A DNA stretch of 44,001 nt, taken from positions 1 through 44,001 of the forward strand of contig JAAYNA010000012.1 in NCBI GenBank assembly GCA_012521105.1, written 5' to 3'. The notes below the pieces were generated by a model. That model saw nothing but the letters and a program-made list of their open reading frames with translations. It was not told the origin of the DNA and searched no databases. Position numbers and translations under genes: made by a program. The DNA is from Clostridiaceae bacterium. GTDB lineage: Bacteria > Bacillota > Clostridia > DSM-8532. Shown here piece after piece: positions 3,257 to 14,484 of the stretch (within the stretch, counting starts at the first letter, position 1; each line of letters starts with the position of its first letter).

Positions 3257-4657
3257 ATGCAGGCATCGAATTTCTATCCAATTTCTCTTGATGAAATAGA
3301 AGCAAGAGTTGCTAAAAGGTTTAAAAAAAATAAAACTCAAAGATTTGAAGATAACGAATCTCTTGATAATGTAAAAGAAATAATAAACGAGTTTGGTGAA
3401 AAGATAATACGGGTTGACGGGGAAATTCCCATAGATTTACCTGTTCAAAATGAGGATAGGTTTTTGTTTATCAGTTATGATCAGTCAAGTTTAACACATG
3501 GTTTACATAAATATCCCGCTAAATTTTTCCCGGAATTGCCCCGATGGCTGATTAAGCGTTATTCAAAAAAAGGAGATTTAATTATTGACCCGTTTTCAGG
3601 AAGTGCCACAACAAATGTAGAAGCGCTACTGGCAGGCAGGCATTCTGTAGGTATAGATGTTTCACCTTTTTCCAGATTTATTGCTAAAGTGAAAGTAACT
3701 CCCTTGGACGAATCTGAACTGGAAGACTGCAAAAACAGAATGATGAGTATGTTGGTTAAATATAATCCTGGAAAAGTGTCAGCTCTTGATATACCTTCTT
3801 TTCCTTATCGTGACAACTGGTTTAATAAAGAAATTGTTTTTGAACTTGCATATATTAAAAAATGTATTGAGAATCTTGATACTAATGAGGATATAAAAGA
3901 TTTTTTCAGAGTTTGCTTTTCATCAATTATTCGGTCTGTCTCAAATGCAGATGATAATTGTACCAGAACGGTAATTCGTAAAAAGCTCAACAAGGTTGTG
4001 AATCCCTCTGATGCACTTGTAAAGTTTGCAGAGGCAATACTTACCAATGTATCTAAAATGACAGAATTTTCCCGTTTATGTCCTGATAATATAAATGTCA
4101 CTTTTCCTGATAATATGGATGCCAGGGATATAAAATATGAAAAGGAGACATTTGATCTTGCACTGACTTCTCCACCTTATGCAAATGCAGTTGATTACCC
4201 AAGAACGCATCAACTGGAAACATACTGGCTGGAGTTTGCTCGAGGGTCCCTTACTCCATTAAAGAAAAAGCAGATTGGGACAGAGAGTGTGTCGGCTAAA
4301 GATTATAGGGAATTACATCTGATTGGGGTAAAAGCGGCTGACGAAGTTATTACAAAGATATACAATAAAGACCCGCGCCGTGCTTATATTGCGTATAAAT
4401 ATTTGAAGGATATGCAGAAGAATTTGCAGGAAGTTTATAAAGTTCTGAAATATAATGGCAAATACATAATAGTTGTTGGAAATAACAGAATTCGAGGCGA
4501 AGTATTTGAAAACTGGAAATATATACTAGCCATGGCCGAAAAAGTTGGATTCAGGTTAGAGAATTATTTTGCATCAGAAATCATTAAGCATTTTATTAAA
4601 GTTCCGCGGGAAGAGCGGATTGATACAGATTGGGTTCTGGTGCTGAATAAAGAATGA
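3257..4657 (+). CDS. DNA methyltransferase with TSPPY motif (putative m4C/m6A modification enzyme)
   Basis: 466 residues from ATG 3257, preceded by AGGAGGGG at the right distance. Motif order: THGLHKYPAKFFPEL (about 80-93), then the S-adenosylmethionine-binding loop DPFSGSATTNVEALLAGR (111-128) with acidic VGIDVSP (131-137), and then the catalytic TSPPY at 304-308. TSPPY is usual in amino-methyltransferases that make N4-methylcytosine, although it does not settle the modified base. The 165-residue stretch between motif I and TSPPY may contain the target-recognition region. It ends VGNNRIRGEVFENWK...DWVLVLNKE, typical of these enzymes. A small nuclease-like gene follows 22 bases downstream, suggesting a two-gene restriction-modification unit. 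Composition is more AT-rich than the transport operon to the right, compatible with acquisition by transfer. Confidence 0.85.
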   Translation: MQASNFYPISLDEIEARVAKRFKKNKTQRFEDNESLDNVKEIINEFGEKIIRVDGEIPIDLPVQNEDRFLFISYDQSSLTHGLHKYPAKFFPELPRWLIKRYSKKGDLIIDPFSGSATTNVEALLAGRHSVGIDVSPFSRFIAKVKVTPLDESELEDCKNRMMSMLVKYNPGKVSALDIPSFPYRDNWFNKEIVFELAYIKKCIENLDTNEDIKDFFRVCFSSIIRSVSNADDNCTRTVIRKKLNKVVNPSDALVKFAEAILTNVSKMTEFSRLCPDNINVTFPDNMDARDIKYEKETFDLALTSPPYANAVDYPRTHQLETYWLEFARGSLTPLKKKQIGTESVSAKDYRELHLIGVKAADEVITKIYNKDPRRAYIAYKYLKDMQKNLQEVYKVLKYNGKYIIVVGNNRIRGEVFENWKYILAMAEKVGFRLENYFASEIIKHFIKVPREERIDTDWVLVLNKE

Positions 4658-4679
4658 GTATGGAAGGAGATGCAGTGGG

Positions 4680-5174
4680 TTGAGCAGCGATGAATTGAGG
4701 GGACGACAGGCCTCTGTAGACGGGTTTGCCCATGAATATATAACTGTCGGAATACTGATGAAGAAATATCAAAACGTATCCCTTGTTGATCTGCCCCTGT
4801 CCCCTTATGATGTGATTGTTGTATTTAAAGCAGAAGATGGCTCGGAAGATATTATTCGTGGGCAGATTAAAACTGCAAAAGCTTCTATAAGTTTTACCGG
4901 CGGAACCAGGGGTGGTGTTGACAGAGCATATATATCAGGTGTTAAAGAGTATATTCAAACAACAAAAACATCTGACGTGGTAATTGGATTAACTCCTCTG
5001 TCCAACAACTCCTTTGATCTATATTTTGTTCCCACAGTTTTAATTGAAAAATTAAGTCAAAAAAGTATTTCTATAAACAGAATACAGGCATTGAAAAACA
5101 ATTATGAAATCTTTGAGAGATGTAAAGACAGAGATTTTGTACTTAATAAATGCAAAGAGTATGGTATATTGTAA
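4680..5174 (+). CDS. Putative restriction endonuclease, PD-(D/E)XK-like with QxK core
   Basis: 164 residues from a TTG at 4680, with GGAAGGAGA about 10 bases upstream. The ATG frames just before it terminate within a few codons, so TTG is the only credible start. An early helix FAHEYITVGILMKKY (about 16-30) carries a glutamate. It is followed by SPYDVIVVF (Asp44), a short turn, and IIRGQIKTAK (Gln62, Lys64). This E...D...QxK arrangement is the usual core of PD-(D/E)XK nucleases of the Holliday-resolvase or type II restriction type. The second half has the strand VVIGLTPL and then FDLYFVPTVLIEKL, which often finish such folds. It lies 22 bases after the methyltransferase, so a restriction function is the natural inference. 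A Vsr-like or orphan nuclease role cannot be excluded. No specific family was recognised by sequence. Confidence 0.6.
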   Translation: MSSDELRGRQASVDGFAHEYITVGILMKKYQNVSLVDLPLSPYDVIVVFKAEDGSEDIIRGQIKTAKASISFTGGTRGGVDRAYISGVKEYIQTTKTSDVVIGLTPLSNNSFDLYFVPTVLIEKLSQKSISINRIQALKNNYEIFERCKDRDFVLNKCKEYGIL

Positions 5175-5304
5175 TTAATCTATATTTAAGTCAAATCAAT
5201 ATAGTGAATAAATCATGTAAAGACCATTTCAAGGCTTCGAAGGCTTGACTTCATTAAACTATATGATATTATTGATATGCAACATCTAAATATTAAAACT
5301 AACG

Positions 5305-5413
5305 TCATCTCCAAATTCCTTTAGGAAGCGGGGGACCCGTTTTTGGGGTGAAGCCTGTGCATCAGGCAGGGCAACTTGGGTGCCCTAACCCGTCAGCTAA
5401 CCTCGCAGGAGTT
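5305..5413 (+). ncRNA. ydaO/yuaA-type cyclic di-AMP riboswitch
   Basis: The conserved blocks of the ydaO aptamer appear in order: CCAAATTCC, GGAAGCGGGGGACCC (5324-5338), TTGGGGTGAAGCC (5343-5355), a GCCTG...CAGGC hairpin, then GGGCAACTTGGGTGCCC, AACCCGTCAGCTAACCTCGC. CTCC (5309-5312) can pair with GGAG (5408-5411) to close the element. Family knowledge: this RNA binds c-di-AMP and usually switches off downstream genes for ion transport, osmoprotection or cell-wall metabolism. Here it precedes the SulP transporter and the Mrp antiporter genes. Confidence 0.93.
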
Positions 5414-5415
5414 AT

Positions 5416-5462
5416 CCAAGCGTTGTGTCTTTGTCGTTATGATAGGCCGGCGCTTTTTTTTG
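5416..5462 (+). terminator. Possible riboswitch expression-platform terminator
   Basis: AAGCG (5418-5422) can pair with CGCTT (5451-5455), followed by a run of eight T residues from 5454. It lies directly after the c-di-AMP aptamer and before the SulP start. The stem seen by eye is short with a long loop, so the exact fold is uncertain. Position and T run fit ligand-dependent termination. Confidence 0.5.
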
Positions 5463-5507
5463 TGGGAAAATCCGGCTGTGCATAAATATCTTACAGGAGT
5501 GGTTTTT

Positions 5508-7049
5508 TTGAAAATATCATGGAAGCGATTACAGGGTGATATAATAGGTGGAATTACCGCAGCGGTTGTAGCACTTCCTCTTTCGCTGGCTTTTGGAATT
5601 GCCAGTGGGGCGGGTGCCGAGGCCGGCTTATATGCATCAATTTTCGGAGGACTTACCGCGGCTTTATTTGGCGGGTGTGGTGTACAGATTACCGGCCCTA
5701 CAGGCGCAATGATAGGAGTTTTGGTGGCCATTGTCAGCCAGTATGGCGTAGGGGGTATGCTACTGGCCGGTGTATTGGCAGGTTTGATGCAGATTGTTTT
5801 CGGCTTGTTTCGTTTCGGTAAATTTGTAAAATACCTGCCTCAACCGGTAATCGCAGGCTTTACGAACGGAGTATCAATATTATTTTTTATGACAGCCATC
5901 GATGATGCCAGAAAGACTCTTTCTATTACTGTGATTACTGCTTTGTCGATCGTTTTGGCAATACGTTTTTTAAAAAAGGTGCCGGAATCTTTGTTTGGGC
6001 TTACTGTTGGTATAATTGCCAACGAGCTTTTCATTAAAAGCCCGCATGTTGTTGGTACTCTTTCCCTTCGTGCACCTAAACTGGCTTTTGACATCATGCC
6101 TCTTGGTAATATCGGTCATTTAATTATACCGGCCTTTACTATTTGTCTTTTAGGCAGCATCTCAGCTTTGCTATCCGCAGAGGTTACAGATGAAATGGTT
6201 GGTGCCCGGCATGACAGTAACAAGGAGCTTATAGGCCAGGGGTTGGGGAATATTGTATCTTCGTTGCTCGGCGGTTTACCCGTATCCGGGGCTGTGGCCC
6301 GTTCGGGAGTTAATGTACATAGCGGGGGCCGAACTCGCTTATCTGGTATCCTGCATTCTATCTTTCTGCTGATTTTGGTTCTGATTCTTGGTCCGATTGT
6401 CAGACGTATACCTTTAGCCTCATTGGCAGCAATTCTGATGATTGCTTCACTACGCACGGCTGATTGGAAAAGTTTGAAGCTTATGTCACGCGCCCGTTGG
6501 AGTTATGGGGCAATTATGACTGTTACCACTGTTCTGACAGTGATACGGGATTTAACCATTGCAGTGGCAGTAGGAGTTGTTTTATCGGGAATTTTTGCAC
6601 TGGCTGAGTTGGCTTCTTCACCTCGTGTAAAAACAATCGGGGAGAAAATTATTGAATCATCTGTCAGCTCTTTTCACCCTGATGTTGATATAATTGCTTT
6701 TCATGGACCTTTGTTTTTTACCGGAGTAGAGCATATGAGGCGCTGTGTGAGCGAAGCATCTGAAAAACCAATTCTGGTATTTGATTTCTCTGATGTAGCC
6801 TTTATAGATGAAACCGGAGCTCTTGCAGTTAAAGACCTGGCTTGCCGGCTTAAGGCCGAAGGTAAGCGAGTATATATAGGAGGGCTTAGCAGAAAGCCTT
6901 TAAGAATATTGATGAGAATGGGTGTGGTAGACAATTTGGGCAGGAATTGTGTGTACAAAAGCTTGAACAGGGCTGTAAAAAGAGTATCAGACGAGGCAAC
7001 TCAGGCTGAGCCCTTTGAACATGTATTAGTTCCCCGGGAGAATGCCTGA
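5508..7049 (+). CDS. SulP-family anion transporter with C-terminal STAS domain
   Basis: The start is set at TTG 5508 (CAGGAGTGG just upstream), giving 513 residues. The frame is open further upstream, but that part is the riboswitch and its terminator, not protein. The product opens ISWKRLQGDIIGGITAAVVALPLSLAFG (quoted in part: GGITAAVVALPLSLAFGIAS), the SulP N-terminal signature. It continues with ITGPTGAMIGVLVAIV, QPVIAGFTNGVSILFF and roughly ten or more membrane helices to about residue 420. A STAS domain closes it (VFDFSDVAFIDETGALAV). Family knowledge: SulP proteins move sulfate, bicarbonate or other anions by Na+ symport or exchange. Together with the Mrp Na+/H+ antiporter genes 64 bases downstream, a Na+-coupled bicarbonate or other anion uptake role is attractive but inferred. 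Confidence 0.9.
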   Translation: MKISWKRLQGDIIGGITAAVVALPLSLAFGIASGAGAEAGLYASIFGGLTAALFGGCGVQITGPTGAMIGVLVAIVSQYGVGGMLLAGVLAGLMQIVFGLFRFGKFVKYLPQPVIAGFTNGVSILFFMTAIDDARKTLSITVITALSIVLAIRFLKKVPESLFGLTVGIIANELFIKSPHVVGTLSLRAPKLAFDIMPLGNIGHLIIPAFTICLLGSISALLSAEVTDEMVGARHDSNKELIGQGLGNIVSSLLGGLPVSGAVARSGVNVHSGGRTRLSGILHSIFLLILVLILGPIVRRIPLASLAAILMIASLRTADWKSLKLMSRARWSYGAIMTVTTVLTVIRDLTIAVAVGVVLSGIFALAELASSPRVKTIGEKIIESSVSSFHPDVDIIAFHGPLFFTGVEHMRRCVSEASEKPILVFDFSDVAFIDETGALAVKDLACRLKAEGKRVYIGGLSRKPLRILMRMGVVDNLGRNCVYKSLNRAVKRVSDEATQAEPFEHVLVPRENA

Positions 7050-7113
7050 GTGATATGCAGGTTAACAACTTAAGCATTCTGCGTGCATTTTTAAAATTAA
7101 AAAGGAGGTTCTC

Positions 7114-7692
7114 ATGCGCGGGCGAAGGTTAGTTTTGTTTATTCTGCTGTTAATATTTTGGTTTGTGATTTCTCAGGAAGCCGATCTGCAGCACATTCTG
7201 GCCGGTGTGCTTGTTGCCTTTATTACAGTTTGGTTTTGGCAGGATCTTGACACAAGGCAACCCGGTATTCTGTCTTTCAGGGCACTGCTTAAGCTATGCC
7301 GGTGCCTTGTGTTAATAGTCTGGTATATCATTCAATCCAATATTGCTGTAATTAAGACTTTGCTTTTTTCAAATCCGCCGGTGAACCCGGTTTTTGTGGA
7401 ATTTGAACCTGGAATAAAGAGCAAATGGGGCAGAATACTTTTTGCAACCTGCATCACGATAACTCCGGGCTCGGTGACTGTTGATATTGACCCCGAAACG
7501 GGGAGATTTCTCGTACACGCTCTTACAGAAGAAACTGCAGATGGCATCGTTAATTGGCGGATGATTGATGAGATTAAAAGTTTGGAAACACAAATGCAAA
7601 GGGGGGCAGAGCATGTTGTGGATAATGGCAGGTTATATGGCTTTGATACTGGTAATACTCGTTCGGGCAATTATCGGTCCAACGGTGATTGA
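7114..7692 (+). CDS. mrpE: Mrp/MBH antiporter subunit MrpE
   Basis: 192 residues from ATG 7114, with AAAGGAGG upstream. Two hydrophobic segments near the N-terminus (LFILLLIFWFVISQEADLQH; VLVAFITVWFW) and one around residues 65-85 are followed by the MrpE hallmark FATCITITPGSVTVDIDPET and FLVHALTEE. MrpE is a small membrane subunit required for assembly and full activity of Mrp-type Na+(Li+)/H+ antiporters. The family is usually about 160 residues. The last 27 residues here (HVVDNGRLYGFDTGNTRSGN onward) are encoded inside the next gene mrpF and look like read-on rather than a conserved domain. First gene of the Mrp block, second in the riboswitch-led operon. Confidence 0.92.
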   Translation: MRGRRLVLFILLLIFWFVISQEADLQHILAGVLVAFITVWFWQDLDTRQPGILSFRALLKLCRCLVLIVWYIIQSNIAVIKTLLFSNPPVNPVFVEFEPGIKSKWGRILFATCITITPGSVTVDIDPETGRFLVHALTEETADGIVNWRMIDEIKSLETQMQRGAEHVVDNGRLYGFDTGNTRSGNYRSNGD

Positions 7693-7915
7693 TCGTCTTA
7701 TTTCAATTAATGCCATCACCAGCAAGGTAAGTGTGATAATTCTGTTAATTGCGTTTATCAGAGGCGAGCATGGATTCATTGATATAGCCTTTGTCTTTGT
7801 GCTGTGCGGATTTGTTGGGGGGCTCTGGATACTTGGAGTGCTCACATCCGGTGACTGGAGGCTTGAAGAGAAAGGGTTGAAGTTTCAACCAAAAAGAAAG
7901 GGTAGTGTCGAATGA
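7613..7915 (+). CDS. mrpF: Mrp/MBH antiporter subunit MrpF
   Basis: 100 residues from ATG 7613. This start has AAAGGGGGG just upstream and removes a 16-residue non-hydrophobic leader that the longer frame would add. Three membrane helices: MLWIMAGYMALILVILVRAI, SVIILLIAFIRG, and the segment FIDIAFVFVLCGFVGGLWIL. The motif RAIIGPTVIDRLISIN is diagnostic for MrpF/PhaF/MbhB. It overlaps the end of mrpE by 80 bases and mrpG by 4 bases (ATGA), so the three small subunits are tightly coupled in translation. Role: small membrane subunit of the Na+/H+ antiporter complex. Confidence 0.93.
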   Translation: MLWIMAGYMALILVILVRAIIGPTVIDRLISINAITSKVSVIILLIAFIRGEHGFIDIAFVFVLCGFVGGLWILGVLTSGDWRLEEKGLKFQPKRKGSVE

Positions 7916-8220
7916 TTAAGTGGATAGCGTATATCTGTTTCACAGGAGCGTTTTTGTCTTTTTCGTTGGGGACCTTAGGGCTGTTCAGATTTCCCGATCC
8001 ATATACACGTATGCATGCTGTTAGCATAAGTGATACCCTGGGTGTGGGGTTAATTGTATGCGGATTGTTTATACTTAGCCCAAGCTGGATTCTTAGAATA
8101 AAACTGGCGGTAGTTTTATTTCTGTTCTGGATTCTTAATCCTACTATGTCGCATTTAGTGGCCAAAGCCGGTATTATACATGGGGTAAAACCTGTGAAAG
8201 GCAAAACTGGAAAGAGGTGA
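7912..8220 (+). CDS. mrpG: Mrp/MBH antiporter subunit MrpG
   Basis: 102 residues from ATG 7912, overlapping the mrpF stop in ATGA. Three hydrophobic helices. The MrpG signature is clear: GTLGLFRFPDPYTRMHAVS followed by DTLGVGLIVCG. The end is LVAKAGIIHGVKPVKGKTGK. MrpG/PhaG/MbhC is a small membrane subunit that works with MrpE and MrpF at one edge of the antiporter complex. The next gene begins 4 bases after its stop. Confidence 0.94.
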   Translation: MIKWIAYICFTGAFLSFSLGTLGLFRFPDPYTRMHAVSISDTLGVGLIVCGLFILSPSWILRIKLAVVLFLFWILNPTMSHLVAKAGIIHGVKPVKGKTGKR

Positions 8221-8224
8221 GGGT

Positions 8225-8476
8225 ATGAATTTTGCAGCTGCTGATTATTGGATCATGACCCTTTTACTTATCCTAATTGTGGCTTCTTTAGCAATGTATT
8301 TTATAAAGGATTTATTACATGCGATTATTGTATATGGTGCGTATAGTTTAACTATGGCTCTTATATGGCTGCAGATGAATACTCCTGATCTTGCCATTAC
8401 AGAAGCTGCTGCCGGGATATGCATGACTGTGTTCATGATGATAGTAATATTCCGTACAAGCCGGAAGGAGGAATAA
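8225..8476 (+). CDS. Small DUF4040/MbhD-type subunit (C-terminal MrpA segment as a separate gene)
   Basis: 83 residues from ATG 8225. Three hydrophobic helices, with the conserved acidic helix NTPDLAITEAAAGICMTVF. This corresponds to a DUF4040 domain that in Bacillus MrpA is fused behind the large NuoL-like part. In archaeal membrane-bound hydrogenases and in the split Mrp type it is a separate subunit (MbhD). In solved complexes such helices line a proton or ion path. Its being a stand-alone gene shows that this operon belongs to the split-MrpA type. Confidence 0.88.
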   Translation: MNFAAADYWIMTLLLILIVASLAMYFIKDLLHAIIVYGAYSLTMALIWLQMNTPDLAITEAAAGICMTVFMMIVIFRTSRKEE

Positions 8477-8478
8477 TT

Positions 8479-8772
8479 GTGAAGGTAAGAAATTTGCTGA
8501 TTTTAATTATAGCTGTGCTTGCCGCCTATGGAATGCTGCTTGCGGTGGCAGAGCTGCCTCCCTACGGCATGCCCGACAATCCAATCCACAACAGTGTTTC
8601 GGAGCGTTACATCAACGAGGCATTGGAAGAGACCGGTGCTTTAAACATGGTCACATCAATTGTGCTTGATTACCGGGCATACGATACTATGTTCGAGACA
8701 ATTGTACTTTTTACTGCAGCACTTGCTGTGGTTATTACCCTTAAAACTTCAGCAAGGGAGGGAAAGGGATAA
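8479..8772 (+). CDS. Small MbhE-type subunit (MrpA C-terminal/MrpB N-terminal segment)
   Basis: 97 residues from GTG 8479, which has GGAAGGAGG about 8 bases upstream. A longer frame starting inside the previous gene is rejected. One N-terminal helix (LLILIIAVLAAYGMLLA), a short outside segment with a conserved-looking ETGALNMVTSIVLDYRAYDT, and a second helix ETIVLFTAALAVVITL. The LDYRAYDT...E.tVLFTA pattern matches MbhE and the corresponding C-terminal part of MrpA. It sits 2 bases after the DUF4040 subunit, and its stop is immediately followed by the next ATG. Confidence 0.87.
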   Translation: MKVRNLLILIIAVLAAYGMLLAVAELPPYGMPDNPIHNSVSERYINEALEETGALNMVTSIVLDYRAYDTMFETIVLFTAALAVVITLKTSAREGKG

Positions 8773-9198
8773 ATGAGGGATTTTATATTAAAACAGGTGG
8801 CTTCGATAATTTTGCCCTTTGTCTGTATATATGGGTTTTATGTTATTCTCCATGGCGCTGTTTCGCCGGGAGGTTCTTTTGCCGGAGGCATTATAGTAGG
8901 GCTTAGTTTTATTGCTTTTTCTACCGTTTACGGCATTGAAAAGTGCCGTGCAAAACTGCCAGAGAAAGCTCTTGTCTGGACAGAGAGCTTTGGTACTCTC
9001 TGGTATGGAATAATGGGTATGGCAGGTATTATAAAGGGAGCTCCCTTTTTGGCAAATAAACTGGCAGGCATTGACGTTGGAGTGCCGGGAAAGCTTATAT
9101 CCGGGGGGCTTATTTCGTTTATAGGTATTGGCGTGGGTATCAGAGTAGCCAGTACAATAATAACTTTGTTCTTTACTATGATGGAGGAAGAGTTGTGA
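8773..9198 (+). CDS. mrpB: Mrp/MBH antiporter subunit MrpB
   Basis: 141 residues from ATG 8773, directly abutting the previous stop. Four hydrophobic helices. The MnhB-domain signature is present: YVILHGAVSPGGSFAGGIIV, then a long loop, then KLISGGLISFIGIGVGIRV. MrpB is a membrane subunit of the cation/proton antiporter. The gene overlaps mrpC by 4 bases (GTGA), continuing the tight translational coupling of this operon. Confidence 0.93.
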   Translation: MRDFILKQVASIILPFVCIYGFYVILHGAVSPGGSFAGGIIVGLSFIAFSTVYGIEKCRAKLPEKALVWTESFGTLWYGIMGMAGIIKGAPFLANKLAGIDVGVPGKLISGGLISFIGIGVGIRVASTIITLFFTMMEEEL

Positions 9199-9578
9199 AA
9201 ATATTATTAGAAAAACTGATCATTAACTATCCATATTTTGCTGCTGTGATTTTATTTATTATTGGAGCTCTTACAGTGTTAACCCGATCAAATCTGTTCA
9301 AGAAGCTGATTGGCATTAATATAATGGAAAGCGGTATTTTTCTTATGTTTGTTGCTGCAGGCAATATAAGGGGAGGAGCGGTACCAATTTTAGAGGAAGG
9401 CAGTTCCAGGTCTGTTTATATCAACCCGCTGCCGTCAGCGTTAATGCTTACCGGTATAGTTGTCAGTGTAAGTGTAACTGCTTTTGCATTGGCGCTTATT
9501 CTTCGGCTATACAAGGAATATGGTACCACTGATGCCCGGCGGATAGCAGAAATAAGAAGCGGGGTGCTAAAAAAATGA
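9195..9578 (+). CDS. mrpC: Mrp/MBH antiporter subunit MrpC (NuoK-like)
   Basis: 127 residues from GTG 9195. Three membrane helices as in NuoK: YFAAVILFIIGALTVLTR, then KKLIGINIMESGIFLMFVAA with its conserved glutamate, then a third helix LMLTGIVVSVSVTAFALALI. The motif INPLPSALMLTGIVV is characteristic of MrpC/MnhC. The insertion RGGAVPILEEGSSRSVY lies on the outer side between helices two and three. It shares ATGA with the next gene, mrpD. Confidence 0.94.
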   Translation: MKILLEKLIINYPYFAAVILFIIGALTVLTRSNLFKKLIGINIMESGIFLMFVAAGNIRGGAVPILEEGSSRSVYINPLPSALMLTGIVVSVSVTAFALALILRLYKEYGTTDARRIAEIRSGVLKK

Positions 9579-11071
9579 TGACAGTGATAACAGATAACCT
9601 ACCGGTATTTGTCGTTATTGCTCCTCTTTTCGTTGCCTTTATACTTCCAACATTTGCCCGAAGGCTGAGGTTGGTGGAGGGACTGGTTATCATTGCCAAT
9701 ACCTTATGGATTGCAGGTGCAGCATATTTGGCATCCATTGTTCTTTCACAGAATGGTATTCCAATTACCTATGCCCTCGGTGGCTGGCAGGCTCCATGGG
9801 GTATAGAGTTAAAGGCGGGAAGTCTTGGTGCCTTATTTATACTGATCATTGCAGGTGTCAGCTTGATGGTGTCTTTTTTTGCCAGAAACAATCTCACAGA
9901 AGAGGTGGGCAGTTATGAGCGGGTAGCCCGGTTCTACGTTCTTATTCTGCTTTTAGGTGGTGCTTTGGCGGGAATGGCGGTAACAAACGACCTTTTTAAT
10001 GTCTATGTCCTTGTTGAAATAGCAACCCTGAGCTGCTGTGGTATGGTGAGTGCCCGAAAACATGCCCGTGCTGCTGAAGCTGCCTTTACATACCTGATCT
10101 TGGCTACTTTAGGCTCTATCCTCGTGATGGGTGGGATTGGTTTTATTTACATAATTACCGGACACCTGAATATGGCCTTCGCCTCTCAGGAACTGGGCAG
10201 AGTCTGGCAGAACAGCCCCCATGTGGTATGGATGGCGTTCAGCTTTTTTCTGGTTGGTTTTGGAGTTAAGGCGGCTGTTTTTCCATTGCATGTTTGGCTG
10301 CCCGATGCACATTCCACTGCTCCTGCTCCGGCCAGTGCAATTTTATCAGGACTCGCTGTTAAAGGCTATCTGATTTGTCTTTTGAAGATTTTATACAATG
10401 TATTTGGGCAGACATTGATGCAACAGTATGCTGTGCAAAGGATACTTGTAATTGTCGGCACATTAACGATAATGGCCGGTTCCATATTGGCTTTGACACA
10501 GGATGAGCTTAAACGCAGACTTGCTTTTTCTACTGTTGCACAGGTAGGATATATTTTCTTTGGTTTTAGTCTTATAAATACAAAAGGTTTGTCGGGCGCA
10601 TTATTTTACCTGGTCAGCCACGCAGTGATTAAATCAACGCTGTTTTTAGCAGCAGGCGCAATGATTTCTGCAACGGGGGAGGGAAAAATCAGCGGCCTGG
10701 CAGGTATCGGCCGTAAAATGCCCATAACTGTGGCGGCATTTACAGTGGCAAGTCTGGGCCTTATAGGCATACCGCTGTTTTCGGGTTTTATAGGAAAATG
10801 GTATTTACTCCTTGGAAGCATGGAGGCAGGGAGCGTAATCCCGGCAGTTGTGATAATTGCAGGCAGTGTGCTTTGTGCTGCTTACCTTCTTCCGGTTATT
10901 CGGGTGGCTTACTTCGAACCGACACCGGAGGTTGATGTTAAGGATCCTGGTCTTTCACAAAAGGTTGCCTTAATTGTGCTGGCAGCGGCTGTGGTGATTT
11001 TGGGAATTTTGCCGGGACCTTTCATGGAGTTGGCTAATATGGCAGCTACTGAATTATTGGTACTCAAATAG
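9575..11071 (+). CDS. mrpD: Mrp/MBH antiporter subunit MrpD (NuoM/N-like)
   Basis: 498 residues from ATG 9575, overlapping the mrpC stop. About 14 membrane helices. Residues essential in this superfamily are present: Glu148 in NVYVLVEIATLSCCG (helix 5) and Lys232 in GFGVKAAVFPLHVWLPDAHS (helix 7). The following SAILSGLAVKGYLICL carries the helix-8 lysine region. MrpD is one of the ion-translocating antiporter subunits, related to complex I NuoM/NuoN. It is the first of three such large subunits in a row here. Confidence 0.92.
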   Translation: MMTVITDNLPVFVVIAPLFVAFILPTFARRLRLVEGLVIIANTLWIAGAAYLASIVLSQNGIPITYALGGWQAPWGIELKAGSLGALFILIIAGVSLMVSFFARNNLTEEVGSYERVARFYVLILLLGGALAGMAVTNDLFNVYVLVEIATLSCCGMVSARKHARAAEAAFTYLILATLGSILVMGGIGFIYIITGHLNMAFASQELGRVWQNSPHVVWMAFSFFLVGFGVKAAVFPLHVWLPDAHSTAPAPASAILSGLAVKGYLICLLKILYNVFGQTLMQQYAVQRILVIVGTLTIMAGSILALTQDELKRRLAFSTVAQVGYIFFGFSLINTKGLSGALFYLVSHAVIKSTLFLAAGAMISATGEGKISGLAGIGRKMPITVAAFTVASLGLIGIPLFSGFIGKWYLLLGSMEAGSVIPAVVIIAGSVLCAAYLLPVIRVAYFEPTPEVDVKDPGLSQKVALIVLAAAVVILGILPGPFMELANMAATELLVLK

Positions 11072-11095
11072 GGGTAGGGGAGGGGAGTTGGGACA

Positions 11096-12538
11096 GTGCC
11101 TGATCTTATTTTTGCTTTATTAAGCGGAGTGGTTGGTAGTCTGATTATTGCGGTGATACCACAGGTTAGAAACCGTCTTAGAAACTTTGCTGTTTTGTTT
11201 TTCTGTGCAGCCGGTACTTTTTTCAGTTGGCGGGTTGCTATAGCTGTATTTGCAGGAGAAAGCGCCGAAATATCAGGTGAGATTGGAGGATTTCCCTTTG
11301 TTCTCAGCCCTGATCCATTAGGAGCAGTTTTTGGACTGATTGCTTCAACGCTCTGGCTTTTTGCTGCTGTATATTCTTTTGGATACATGGCAGGTAAGAA
11401 TAGACAGCGAAGCTATTTCACCTTTTTTCTTCTGGCTTTAAGTGCGACTCTCGGAGTGGCTTTTTCAGGTAACCTGATAGCATTGTATCTGTTTTATGAA
11501 CTGCTTACCTTTGCCACATATCCTTTAGTCATTCATGAACGCAGTGCCGAAGCTATGAAAGCAGGAAAAAGATATATTCTGTACAGTCTTTCGGGTGCAG
11601 GAGCAATTTTGATTGCAATTGTGGTAACGTATAGCCTGACAGGAAATGTTGATTTTTCCGGTGAACCAATATTAGCCGGTCATCGAAGTTCGGGATTAAA
11701 CTTTCTGCTAATTCTTTTTATTATTGGATTTGGCGTTAAAGCAGCTATAATGCCCTTACACCGATGGCTGCCTGCGGCGATGGTTGCTCCGACACCGGTG
11801 AGTGCCTTGCTTCATGCAGTAGCGGTAGTATATTCAGGTGCCTATGGAATTTTACGTGTTGTGTATTCGGTGTTCGGACAGGAACTTATGAGGACGCTGA
11901 GTTTTAGATATATTTTTTCCTGGGTTATTGCTTTCACTATTCTGGCAGGAGTGATTATTGCCACAAGGCAGGATATTATGAAGCTTCGCCTGGCTTATCA
12001 GACTGTAAGCCACCTTTCATATATTCTGTTGGGTGCCTTTACACTTCAGCCATGGGGTTTAGCTGGAGCTGTGATGCATATGATCAGCTATTCCATGCTA
12101 AAAATTACCCTGTTCTTTTGTGCAGGGATTATTTCGGAACACTCTGGCAAAACCAGGGTCAGCAGCATGGGTGGTATAGGCAGGCAGTTTCCGGAAACTA
12201 TGGCGGCCTTCGGCGTTGCTACCCTTGGAATGATTGGAATGCTGCCTTTGAATACCTTCTGGGGCAAATACTATTTAATGAAGGGAAGTGTTGCAGCGGG
12301 AATGTGGCCTTTCGCACTGGTATTAACGGGTAGTGGAATTATTAATGCTGTCTGTTTTATTCCCGTTGTTGTTAATGCCTTTCGTGGAGAAAAAGCTCAC
12401 ACAAACTCCGGGCAGAAAACCGGGGTTGCCCTTATGCTTGCCCCAACACTTATTTTGGTTGTAATTGCACTTTTTACAGGGCTTTGGCCGGGAATGGTCT
12501 GGCCGGCAGTTCAGGCTGTTGTTAACTGGTATTTTTAG
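11096..12538 (+). CDS. Second MrpD/NuoN-like antiporter subunit
   Basis: 480 residues from GTG 11096, with GGGGAGG upstream. Multi-spanning membrane protein of the NuoL/M/N superfamily. Glu135 in YLFYELLTFATYPLV and Lys215 in GFGVKAAIMPLHRWLPAAM are retained, so it should be competent for ion translocation. Later: PTPVSALLHAVAVVYSGAYG and RLAYQTVSHLSYILLG. It is clearly paralogous to the upstream mrpD but diverged. Family knowledge: split-type Mrp and MBH-like operons of thermophilic bacteria and archaea carry extra MrpD-type genes. Bacillus-type Mrp has only MrpA and MrpD. Confidence 0.88.
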   Translation: MPDLIFALLSGVVGSLIIAVIPQVRNRLRNFAVLFFCAAGTFFSWRVAIAVFAGESAEISGEIGGFPFVLSPDPLGAVFGLIASTLWLFAAVYSFGYMAGKNRQRSYFTFFLLALSATLGVAFSGNLIALYLFYELLTFATYPLVIHERSAEAMKAGKRYILYSLSGAGAILIAIVVTYSLTGNVDFSGEPILAGHRSSGLNFLLILFIIGFGVKAAIMPLHRWLPAAMVAPTPVSALLHAVAVVYSGAYGILRVVYSVFGQELMRTLSFRYIFSWVIAFTILAGVIIATRQDIMKLRLAYQTVSHLSYILLGAFTLQPWGLAGAVMHMISYSMLKITLFFCAGIISEHSGKTRVSSMGGIGRQFPETMAAFGVATLGMIGMLPLNTFWGKYYLMKGSVAAGMWPFALVLTGSGIINAVCFIPVVVNAFRGEKAHTNSGQKTGVALMLAPTLILVVIALFTGLWPGMVWPAVQAVVNWYF

Positions 12539-12555
12539 AGAAGGGAGATACTTTT

Positions 12556-14484
12556 ATGTTATTTGTAATTCTTCCGGTTATTCCCCTGATAGGAGTACTT
12601 TTGCTGTTATTAAAACGAAACAGGGCTATTAATTTACCCTTTGTTGCAGGTATTACGGTTCTTGTACTGGGAAGCCTGGGTCTTAAGAGCGTTTTTGCGG
12701 GAAATGGATTAACATTCAGATTACCGCTTCCGGGCCCGTTTCAGCCAACTTTTCAGGCTGATCCGCTATCTGCCATATTAGTTATTTTAACTGCTTTTCT
12801 TTTTTTCGTGGTCTCTGTATATACACCGAAATATATGAAACATGAAGGCGGGATAAAGGGATTTGAAGCCTGTATGCTACTGACTTTTTCTGCTGTTTTA
12901 GGAGTTTTTACGGCTGGTGATTTAGTAACCATGCTTCTTTTCTTTGAACTTATGACCATTACCTCCTGTTTCTGGGTTATTCACAGATGGAATGAAGAGG
13001 CAATTAGAGCAGTTTTTTTCTATTTGTTCTTCAGTATCATTGGTGGACTGTTCTTAGGCTTGGGAATTGTGATGATGGGGGCAGCAACAGATGTTCTGCC
13101 TGCTGTTGGTGGGGGAGTTGTTATTCCTTCGGATTCTAAAAAGTTTGTCCTTAGCATGGTACTTTTAGTAGCGGGCTTTGGAATAAAGGCAGGCATGGTG
13201 CCTCTGCATCTTTGGCTGCCCCATGCCCACTCGGCAGCACCTGCACCCGGCAGCGCACTATTATCGGGGCTGCTTATTAAGGTCGGAGCATATGGCCTGA
13301 TAAGGGTGGGCGAGTTTGCTGGCTGGGGCATCAGAATGGAAAGTGAATTAAACCGGATGGGACCGGTTCTTTCAGTTTTAGGTGTTTGCACAATGGTGGC
13401 CGGTGTAACTGCAGCATTATTACAGAGTGATGCCAAGCGTCTTTTAGCATACCATAGTGTCAGCCAGATGGGCTACATTATTCTAAGTTTGGGTATTGCT
13501 GTTTTTATGGGCGCGGATGGAGGTCTTGCCCTTACAGGTGCTGTTTATCATATTGTTAATCATGCTCTGTTCAAAGCTGCGCTGTTTTTAGGTGTTGGTG
13601 TTATTTATATTCATACAAATGAAACTAATTTGTATAAACTCGGTGGTCTTTGGCGCCATTTCCCGGTTACAGCCGCACTCATGTTACCTGCTGTTCTGGG
13701 GATAGCCGGTGCACCGGGCTTTAATGGCTACGCCAGTAAGACTATGATGCATCACGCTGTCAGTGCTGCTGCGAAAACGGGCACAGGATGGATGTTATGG
13801 GTGGAACGGTTGTTTACTATGGTGGGTGTAGGCACAGCCGCATCTTTTACCAAGTTGTATTACCTGATGTTTCTTGGAAAGCCCGCCGGAATTAAGGTGG
13901 CAAAAAACAGAGCTCACAGCCTGCAAATAGCCATGGGTTTATTAGCAGTTGTTATGATTGCAATTGGAGTTGTACCACAGTTATTTCCTGATATTGCAGC
14001 AATACCGGCTGTACAGGCATTAGGTATGGAGAATGCTTCTAATACCTTAGCCGGCATATCATTCTGGAATTTTAGTGATATCTTCAGCATGCTCATTACC
14101 TTAATTCTAGGCATGCTGGTATGCTGGATTGGTCTTAAAAGCGGAGTATTTCACCGGCAGCCCCCTTCCTGGTTGACACTGGAAGGGTTGGGAAAGCTGG
14201 CAGGTCAGGGGATTTTGGCTCTGTCGAACAAGGCGGCAGAGTTGTACGGCTCTGTGGTAAAATGTATCCGCAATTCAGGCAGTATGATGATTCGTCGTAT
14301 ATACTCTGTCTTAGGTAAATTCGGGCAAAACAGAAATAGCACCACCGGTGGGGTTACGCTGTCATGGATTAGCGCTGATACTGCACTTATAATTATCGCA
14401 TTAGCCTTCCTTATTGTATGGTATACCCTTATTAATCCCGGTTTGTCCGAACAGAGGCTAATCTATATGTGGATTGATAATTAG
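12556..14484 (+). CDS. Third, long antiporter subunit (MrpA N-terminal/NuoL-like)
   Basis: 642 residues from ATG 12556, with AGAAGGGAG upstream. NuoL/M/N superfamily core: QADPLSAILVILTAFLFFVV, Glu131 in LLFFELMTITSCFWVIH, Lys211 in GFGIKAGMVPLHLWLPHAHS, RLLAYHSVSQMGYIILSLG and HIVNHALFKAALFLGVGVIY. It is about 150 residues longer than the two preceding subunits. The C-terminal part has additional helices (SMLITLILGMLVCWIGL; the last one near TALIIIALAFLIVWYTL), reminiscent of the long lateral extension of NuoL/MrpA. It probably takes the place of the large N-terminal MrpA portion. Last gene of the operon. No clear terminator was seen before proS. Confidence 0.87.
   Translation: MLFVILPVIPLIGVLLLLLKRNRAINLPFVAGITVLVLGSLGLKSVFAGNGLTFRLPLPGPFQPTFQADPLSAILVILTAFLFFVVSVYTPKYMKHEGGIKGFEACMLLTFSAVLGVFTAGDLVTMLLFFELMTITSCFWVIHRWNEEAIRAVFFYLFFSIIGGLFLGLGIVMMGAATDVLPAVGGGVVIPSDSKKFVLSMVLLVAGFGIKAGMVPLHLWLPHAHSAAPAPGSALLSGLLIKVGAYGLIRVGEFAGWGIRMESELNRMGPVLSVLGVCTMVAGVTAALLQSDAKRLLAYHSVSQMGYIILSLGIAVFMGADGGLALTGAVYHIVNHALFKAALFLGVGVIYIHTNETNLYKLGGLWRHFPVTAALMLPAVLGIAGAPGFNGYASKTMMHHAVSAAAKTGTGWMLWVERLFTMVGVGTAASFTKLYYLMFLGKPAGIKVAKNRAHSLQIAMGLLAVVMIAIGVVPQLFPDIAAIPAVQALGMENASNTLAGISFWNFSDIFSMLITLILGMLVCWIGLKSGVFHRQPPSWLTLEGLGKLAGQGILALSNKAAELYGSVVKCIRNSGSMMIRRIYSVLGKFGQNRNSTTGGVTLSWISADTALIIIALAFLIVWYTLINPGLSEQRLIYMWIDN

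Follow-up and report, generated by a model that had tools for sequence, protein, structure and literature searches.

A predicted c-di-AMP ON riboswitch ahead of a SulP transporter gene and an Mrp-type antiporter gene set in a Clostridiaceae bacterium

The DNA analyzed here (the window) is a stretch of 44,001 nucleotides from a Clostridiaceae bacterium (contig JAAYNA010000012.1, positions 1 to 44,001 of the forward strand). It contains a cyclic di-AMP (c-di-AMP) riboswitch aptamer of the ydaO class (Rfam family RF00379) ahead of sulP, a gene for a SulP-type anion transporter, which is followed by ten genes of an Mrp/Mbh-type antiporter. An original prediction made from the sequence had proposed that the riboswitch controls this whole gene set. 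We computed the aptamer, the promoter, the terminator and its overlap with the aptamer, the conservation, the operon content and the host c-di-AMP cyclase gene, and the layout of the leader argues that it is probably a c-di-AMP ON switch heading sulP and the ten antiporter genes from one promoter.

The sulP leader

The RF00379 covariance model matched positions 5299–5426 of the plus strand over its full length (1–134) with 91 bits (E 3.4e-20), against a curated cut-off of 38 bits. This bears out the ydaO aptamer originally noticed before sulP, and an Rfam scan of the whole window gave no second family above cut-off. Upstream of the aptamer, a promoter of the TTGACT-16-TANNAT type lies at the equivalent position in most orthologous leaders tested. 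The elements of the window leader are as follows.

5245–5272, plus strand: promoter TTGACT-16-TATTAT (10 of 12 consensus positions, TG ahead of the -10 element)
5299–5426, plus strand: c-di-AMP (ydaO) riboswitch aptamer, RF00379, 91 bits, full length
5375–5381, plus strand: loop strand of the aptamer pseudoknot, CUUGGGU, pairing with 5414–5420
5414–5420, plus strand: 3' strand of the aptamer pseudoknot, AUCCAAG, of which AAG doubles as the terminator base
5418–5461, plus strand: intrinsic terminator (AAGCGUUG...CGGCGCUUUUUUUU) between aptamer and sulP, the expression platform; folding free energy (dG) -14.7 kcal/mol, z -3.25

The c-di-AMP-bound crystal construct 4QLM has a pseudoknot between the loop UUACUCCUUCGACCC and the tail CGAAGGAG that has been called stable (PMC5393176), and the window aptamer has the loop–tail pseudoknot that marks the RF00379 class (CUUGGGU/AUCCAAG). 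Across 85 leaders this complementarity was leader-specific, the score of the leaders' own pairs being 15.6 against 10.7 for permuted pairs (maximum 12.0 in 300 permutations). The window aptamer is predicted to bind c-di-AMP, and the host genome contains a gene for a protein with a DAC (c-di-AMP cyclase) domain.

The pseudoknot 3' strand (CCAAG) has three nucleotides, AAG, in common with the foot of the terminator stem (AAGCG...CGCUUUUUU; AAGCG...CGCUU). When AAG is held by the pseudoknot the dG of the terminator goes from -14.2 to -9.3 kcal/mol, a loss of about 4.9 kcal/mol. The stem starts 3 nt inside the pseudoknot strand in 25 of the 34 sulP-type leaders that were parsed; several of the other nine were mis-parsed by the automatic procedure, and their terminators were relocated from the first U-run. 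The terminator base AAGCG/CGCUU is invariant in all 21 aligned sulP-mrp leaders, the stem pairs in 84% of alignment cells versus 23–53% for a slid stem, and most sulP-type leaders have kept a strong terminator with a U-tract.

The gene set and its transcription

Downstream of the terminator, the plus strand carries the following features.

5495–5499, plus strand: sulP ribosome binding site AGGAG, called from the sequence, 8 nt before the start
5508–7049, plus strand: sulP, SulP/SLC26-type anion transporter with STAS domain, 513 aa, TTG start (PF00916, 203.7 bits; PF01740, 43.7 bits)
7114–7692, plus strand: mrpE (PF01899)
7613–7915, plus strand: mrpF (PF04066)
7912–8220, plus strand: mrpG (PF03334; TIGR01300 over cut-off)
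8225–8476, plus strand: MbhD/DUF4040 subunit, elsewhere part of MrpA (PF13244)
8479–8772, plus strand: MbhE subunit (PF20501)
8773–9198, plus strand: mnhB/mrpB (PF04039)
9195–9578, plus strand: mrpC (PF00420)
9575–11071, plus strand: MrpD-type subunit 1 (PF00361), with Glu148, Lys232 and Lys353 in the usual motifs
11096–12538, plus strand: MrpD-type subunit 2 (PF00361), with Glu135, Lys215 and Lys336
12556–14484, plus strand: MrpD/MrpA-type subunit 3 (NCBIfam antiporter/HyfB models), with Glu131, Lys211 and Lys340

The true sulP start is the TTG at 5508, the start in the program-made list of open reading frames being too early. The Pfam and NCBIfam matches agree with the original assignment of a SulP gene plus a whole antiporter set reaching to 14484. 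The Mrp set is complete, with Pfam matches for MrpB, C, D, E, F and G, and has a D-type subunit together with MbhD and MbhE in place of MrpA. The Glu and Lys motifs known from proton-pumping subunits are present in each of the three MrpD-type subunits. The gene order of the Mbh antiporter module is E-F-G-MbhD-MbhE-B-C-D.

The gap between sulP and mrpE is 64 nt and contains a ribosome binding site, and the downstream genes overlap or sit at most 24 nt apart. No promoter-like site was found in the sulP-mrpE gap at any of 15 loci (the window and 14 orthologous gaps), which favors the coupling of mrpE to the riboswitch. Promoter-like matches over the whole operon region numbered 17, against 19.6 expected by chance. 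The conserved upstream promoter, the promoterless gap and the tight spacing support, although they do not prove, a single transcript across sulP-mrp.

The SulP protein aligns best with SLC26Dg and BicA. The Na+ ligands of BicA are Asp258, Thr262, Gly300 and Thr302 (PMC13249358); at these sites the window protein has Ser219, Ser223, Gly261 and Val263, and among the 30 orthologues aligned Ser219 and Val263 are found in all 30 and Ser223 in 29. Thr69, which contacts bicarbonate in BicA, is retained as Thr65, and an Arg265 absent from BicA lies in transmembrane helix (TM) 10. The protein scored 277.9 with the BicA model (cut-off 880). With Asp258 and Thr302 replaced, Na+/bicarbonate symport of the BicA type is unlikely, which weakens the original suggestion that the anion is perhaps bicarbonate; anion transport that is uncoupled or works by exchange is more likely. 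The subfamily is also short of about 35 residues between two helices (window 5508–7049, residues about 133–140) relative to other SulPs of the family, and SLC26Dg has Gln and BicA has Val at the position of its Glu225 in TM8, a residue conserved in 29 of the 30 orthologues.

Upstream of the operon, window positions 3257–5174 hold a DNA methyltransferase gene (type II, PADLOC MTase_II) and then a 164-aa open reading frame without family match that ends about 70 nt ahead of the riboswitch promoter; the two are possibly a restriction-modification pair.

Conservation and exceptional loci

Alignment of four SulP orthologues against 84,980 species genomes yielded 32 SulP orthologues (best-segment identity 56–77%), nearly all of them belonging to uncultured anaerobic Bacillota, plus 17 remote SulPs that had neither the aptamer nor mrp. 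The conservation counts take in related genomes and a few near-duplicates, and three loci carry two labels each (L044 = L036, L051 = L037 and L067 = L035). RF00379 was found upstream of sulP in 28 of the 32 orthologues (73.9–102.8 bits). Two others have the aptamer core by sequence, namely L048, which is close to L047, and L055, where the contig end cuts the aptamer. The remaining two are L065, with only 108 nt of upstream sequence, and L053, which has neither aptamer nor mrp. In 28 of 32 orthologues sulP is directly followed by the mrp set, and the arrangement is conserved. Its distribution is patchy: none of the three other genomes in the genus has the module, and by leader pattern it occurs in 6 of 391 genomes of the class.

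Two loci, L095 and L096, lack sulP and have mrpE directly after the aptamer and terminator; in L095 sulP was probably deleted, because the sulP-type sequence that preceded the lost gene is still there. At L063 (8379–16418) an F-type ATP synthase operon comes directly after the sulP-type c-di-AMP leader and sulP. The c subunit of this synthase has a Gln, Glu-Thr, Tyr pattern, which we take to be that of Na+-translocating rings. At L055 (8–11651) the leader and sulP are followed by a hydrogenase cluster, made up of the maturation genes hypA-hypB-hypF-hypD-hypE and NuoLMN-type genes. In its counterpart L066 (9756–12124) sulP is frameshifted and only a remnant of hypA is left. Ion-gradient machinery is the theme common to these exceptional loci.

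The proposal that c-di-AMP controls SulP and Mrp as one transcription unit has good support at the level of sequence from the aptamer, the single conserved promoter, the promoterless sulP-mrpE gap, the gene order in 28 of 32 orthologues and the aptamer before mrpE where sulP was lost. The original prediction overlooked the promoter (5245–5272) and the terminator (5418–5461); the overlap of the terminator with the aptamer pseudoknot predicts that the control is ON and not, as usual, OFF.

The genome of L063 also has an orphan sulP-type leader with terminator (L164, 2363–2493) that is followed by neither sulP nor mrp, the next gene, an aminoglycoside-phosphotransferase-like open reading frame, being about 480 nt downstream.

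Polarity of the switch

White et al. apply the rule that a riboswitch is ON when aptamer and terminator overlap and OFF when they are apart (PMC9337991), and in the fluoride riboswitch, an ON switch, a pseudoknot strand is the terminator base (PMC11077080). Both precedents point to ON for the window leader because the pseudoknot strand of the ligand-bound form (AUCCAAG) shares AAG with the terminator base. As controls we took 84 other c-di-AMP leaders, drawn from the class, the family and the phylum of the source organism. A terminator-like hairpin was present in 56 of these, its start lying between 0 and 86 nt past the end of the pseudoknot, and none of the 56 had a genuine terminator-pseudoknot overlap, the two flagged cases (L141 and L180) being alternative long-range mis-folds. 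In about half of the control leaders the aptamer 3' strand pairs with the terminator 5' arm, forming the antiterminator typical of OFF switches and described for the Dehalobacter switch (PMC9337991).

An ordinary OFF switch, in which c-di-AMP promotes the terminator and SulP-Mrp is made at low c-di-AMP (K+ shortage or high salt), is the most serious alternative, although we consider it unlikely. OFF is the sole behavior described for c-di-AMP riboswitches in the accessible papers (PMC6488665, PMC9960051, PMC9337991), which weighs against an ON switch, and OFF control would be physiologically sensible given that Na+ export helps in high salt. However, it would require an antiterminator that forms only in the ligand-free state, and in most sulP leaders no aptamer strand except the pseudoknot loop paired with the terminator 5' arm above shuffled sequences. 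An antiterminator within the aptamer was rejected for lack of a conserved partner for that arm. Moreover, the terminator base would be occupied by the ligand-stabilized pseudoknot. In L098 and L099, the OFF-type leaders of the source genome, the pseudoknot is CUCUUUC/GAAAGAG and the terminator lies apart from it, 14–16 nt downstream.

These two leaders each head one of two paralogous citrate-synthase-type genes of 465 aa (L098:436–1833 on contig C26 and L099:6357–7754 on contig C145) and, by their usual OFF layout, would connect the entry into citrate and glutamate metabolism with c-di-AMP. On a further contig of the source genome, C132, a LysM/SleB-type wall hydrolase gene has as its ribosome binding site the pseudoknot 3' strand of the aptamer at L100 (5443–5575, minus strand), a translational OFF layout. 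A translational OFF switch with the ribosome binding site as pseudoknot strand has been proposed in C. glutamicum (PMC9960051), and the layout recurs before other genes in L119, L126, L144 and L148.

We consider it improbable that the sulP leader binds c-di-AMP yet is a poor transcriptional switch, control being mainly translational or by way of a third structure in which the aptamer tail pairs with an element ahead of the ribosome binding site of sulP. A conserved CUUGGUACCACU-like element just before that site, complementary to the aptamer tail AGUGGUCCAAG, occurs in about 17 of 28 leaders (among them L042, L046, L049, L054, L056, L058, L061, L064 and L081), and some terminators look decayed. 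The pairing has a mean of -11.3 kcal/mol versus -8.6 for shuffles, but it is weakly leader-specific (77 of 5000 swaps were equally good), the element is missing from the window leader, and most leaders have a strong terminator with U-tract. Sequestration of the ribosome binding site by an aptamer strand (ACCCCG/CGGGGU) was seen in some leaders and is lost when either side changes; we do not claim it. A further improbable alternative, that the riboswitch governs sulP alone and mrpE has its own promoter, has in its favor that the aptamer stays with sulP at three loci lacking mrp (L055, L063 and L066), and against it the promoterless gap at 15 of 15 loci and the aptamer and terminator directly before mrpE in L095 and L096.

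Several points tell against the ON switch itself. The terminator looks decayed in L045, L046 and L049 and weak in L057 and L062, and the U-tract is poor in L056. The overlapped bases never vary in the family, and hence covariation cannot prove selection for both uses. Finally, the pseudoknot may form without ligand, which would give a weak switch or constitutive read-through.

If the leader is an ON switch, the single promoter at 5245–5272 would give a transcript containing the c-di-AMP aptamer, sulP and the ten-gene antiporter set. Without c-di-AMP the terminator hairpin would displace the weak pseudoknot and transcription would end, whereas with c-di-AMP bound the pseudoknot would be held, the terminator would be deprived of its bottom three pairs and RNA polymerase would enter sulP-mrp. 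High c-di-AMP would thereby give more exporters, the Mrp complex expelling Na+ or K+ in exchange for H+ and SulP moving an anion. From the computed features we infer ligand binding, switching direction, transcript continuity, the transported ions and the physiological role. In known systems high c-di-AMP denotes ample K+ and no hyperosmotic stress, and the nucleotide represses importers and favors exporters; an ON switch before an antiporter set would be coherent with this importer-off, exporter-on pattern.

A wider scenario, to which we incline with rather less assurance, is that this lineage fused the pseudoknot strand to the terminator base and so inverted an importer OFF switch into an ON switch for the ion-exporting SulP-Mrp, with variants heading a hydrogenase cluster and an ATP synthase whose c subunit is of the Na+ type. 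Control by c-di-AMP has been described as closing the import of K+ and osmolytes by way of OFF riboswitches. If true, an ON c-di-AMP riboswitch would be a transcriptional route to the activation of export, paralleling the known activation at the protein level, and would tie c-di-AMP to Na+, pH and membrane energetics. We offer for test the general rule that polarity follows from which of the two hairpins, terminator or antiterminator, includes the ligand-stabilized strand.

Comparison with known systems

The searchable literature, outside of which several primary c-di-AMP riboswitch papers lie, gave no link of a c-di-AMP riboswitch to SulP and no ON-type c-di-AMP riboswitch. The RNA class is known, whereas the expression platform and regulon are a variant not described in that literature; we do not assert the novelty of the gene association absolutely.

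Like the RF00379 switches of B. thuringiensis kdpFABC (PMC6488665) and Dehalobacter ablA (PMC9337991), the window leader has a full aptamer with all conserved cores, the loop–tail pseudoknot and an intrinsic terminator before the first gene. It differs in that the terminator base overlaps the pseudoknot strand, which predicts ON, whereas in the known switches the two stand apart (OFF), and in that it heads SulP-Mrp rather than K+ importer, osmolyte or cell-wall genes. With the fluoride (crcB) riboswitch (PMC11077080) it has in common a ligand-stabilized pseudoknot 3' strand that serves as terminator base and, by prediction, ON logic, although aptamer and ligand are unrelated and the window leader shares three nucleotides.

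The antiporter genes resemble the Mrp antiporter and the MbhA-H module of membrane-bound hydrogenase in gene order and in the key Glu/Lys motifs of the D-type subunits, but the window set has three MrpD-type subunits, no hydrogenase genes and sulP in front. SulP shares with BicA (6ki1), a SulP-type Na+/HCO3- symporter, the SulP fold, the STAS domain and the threonine Thr65 (Thr69 in BicA), and differs in Ser219/Val263 for Asp258/Thr302 and in Arg265 of TM10. In cyanobacteria c-di-AMP has been linked to Na+/H+ antiporters and to BicA/SbtA, and slr0753 is associated with a chloride-efflux riboswitch (PMC10117731). Na+ homeostasis, inorganic carbon genes and the transport of anions are connected with c-di-AMP there and, by prediction, similarly in the window; the cyanobacterial link runs through proteins and separate genes, whereas in the window it would run through one transcript under one riboswitch.

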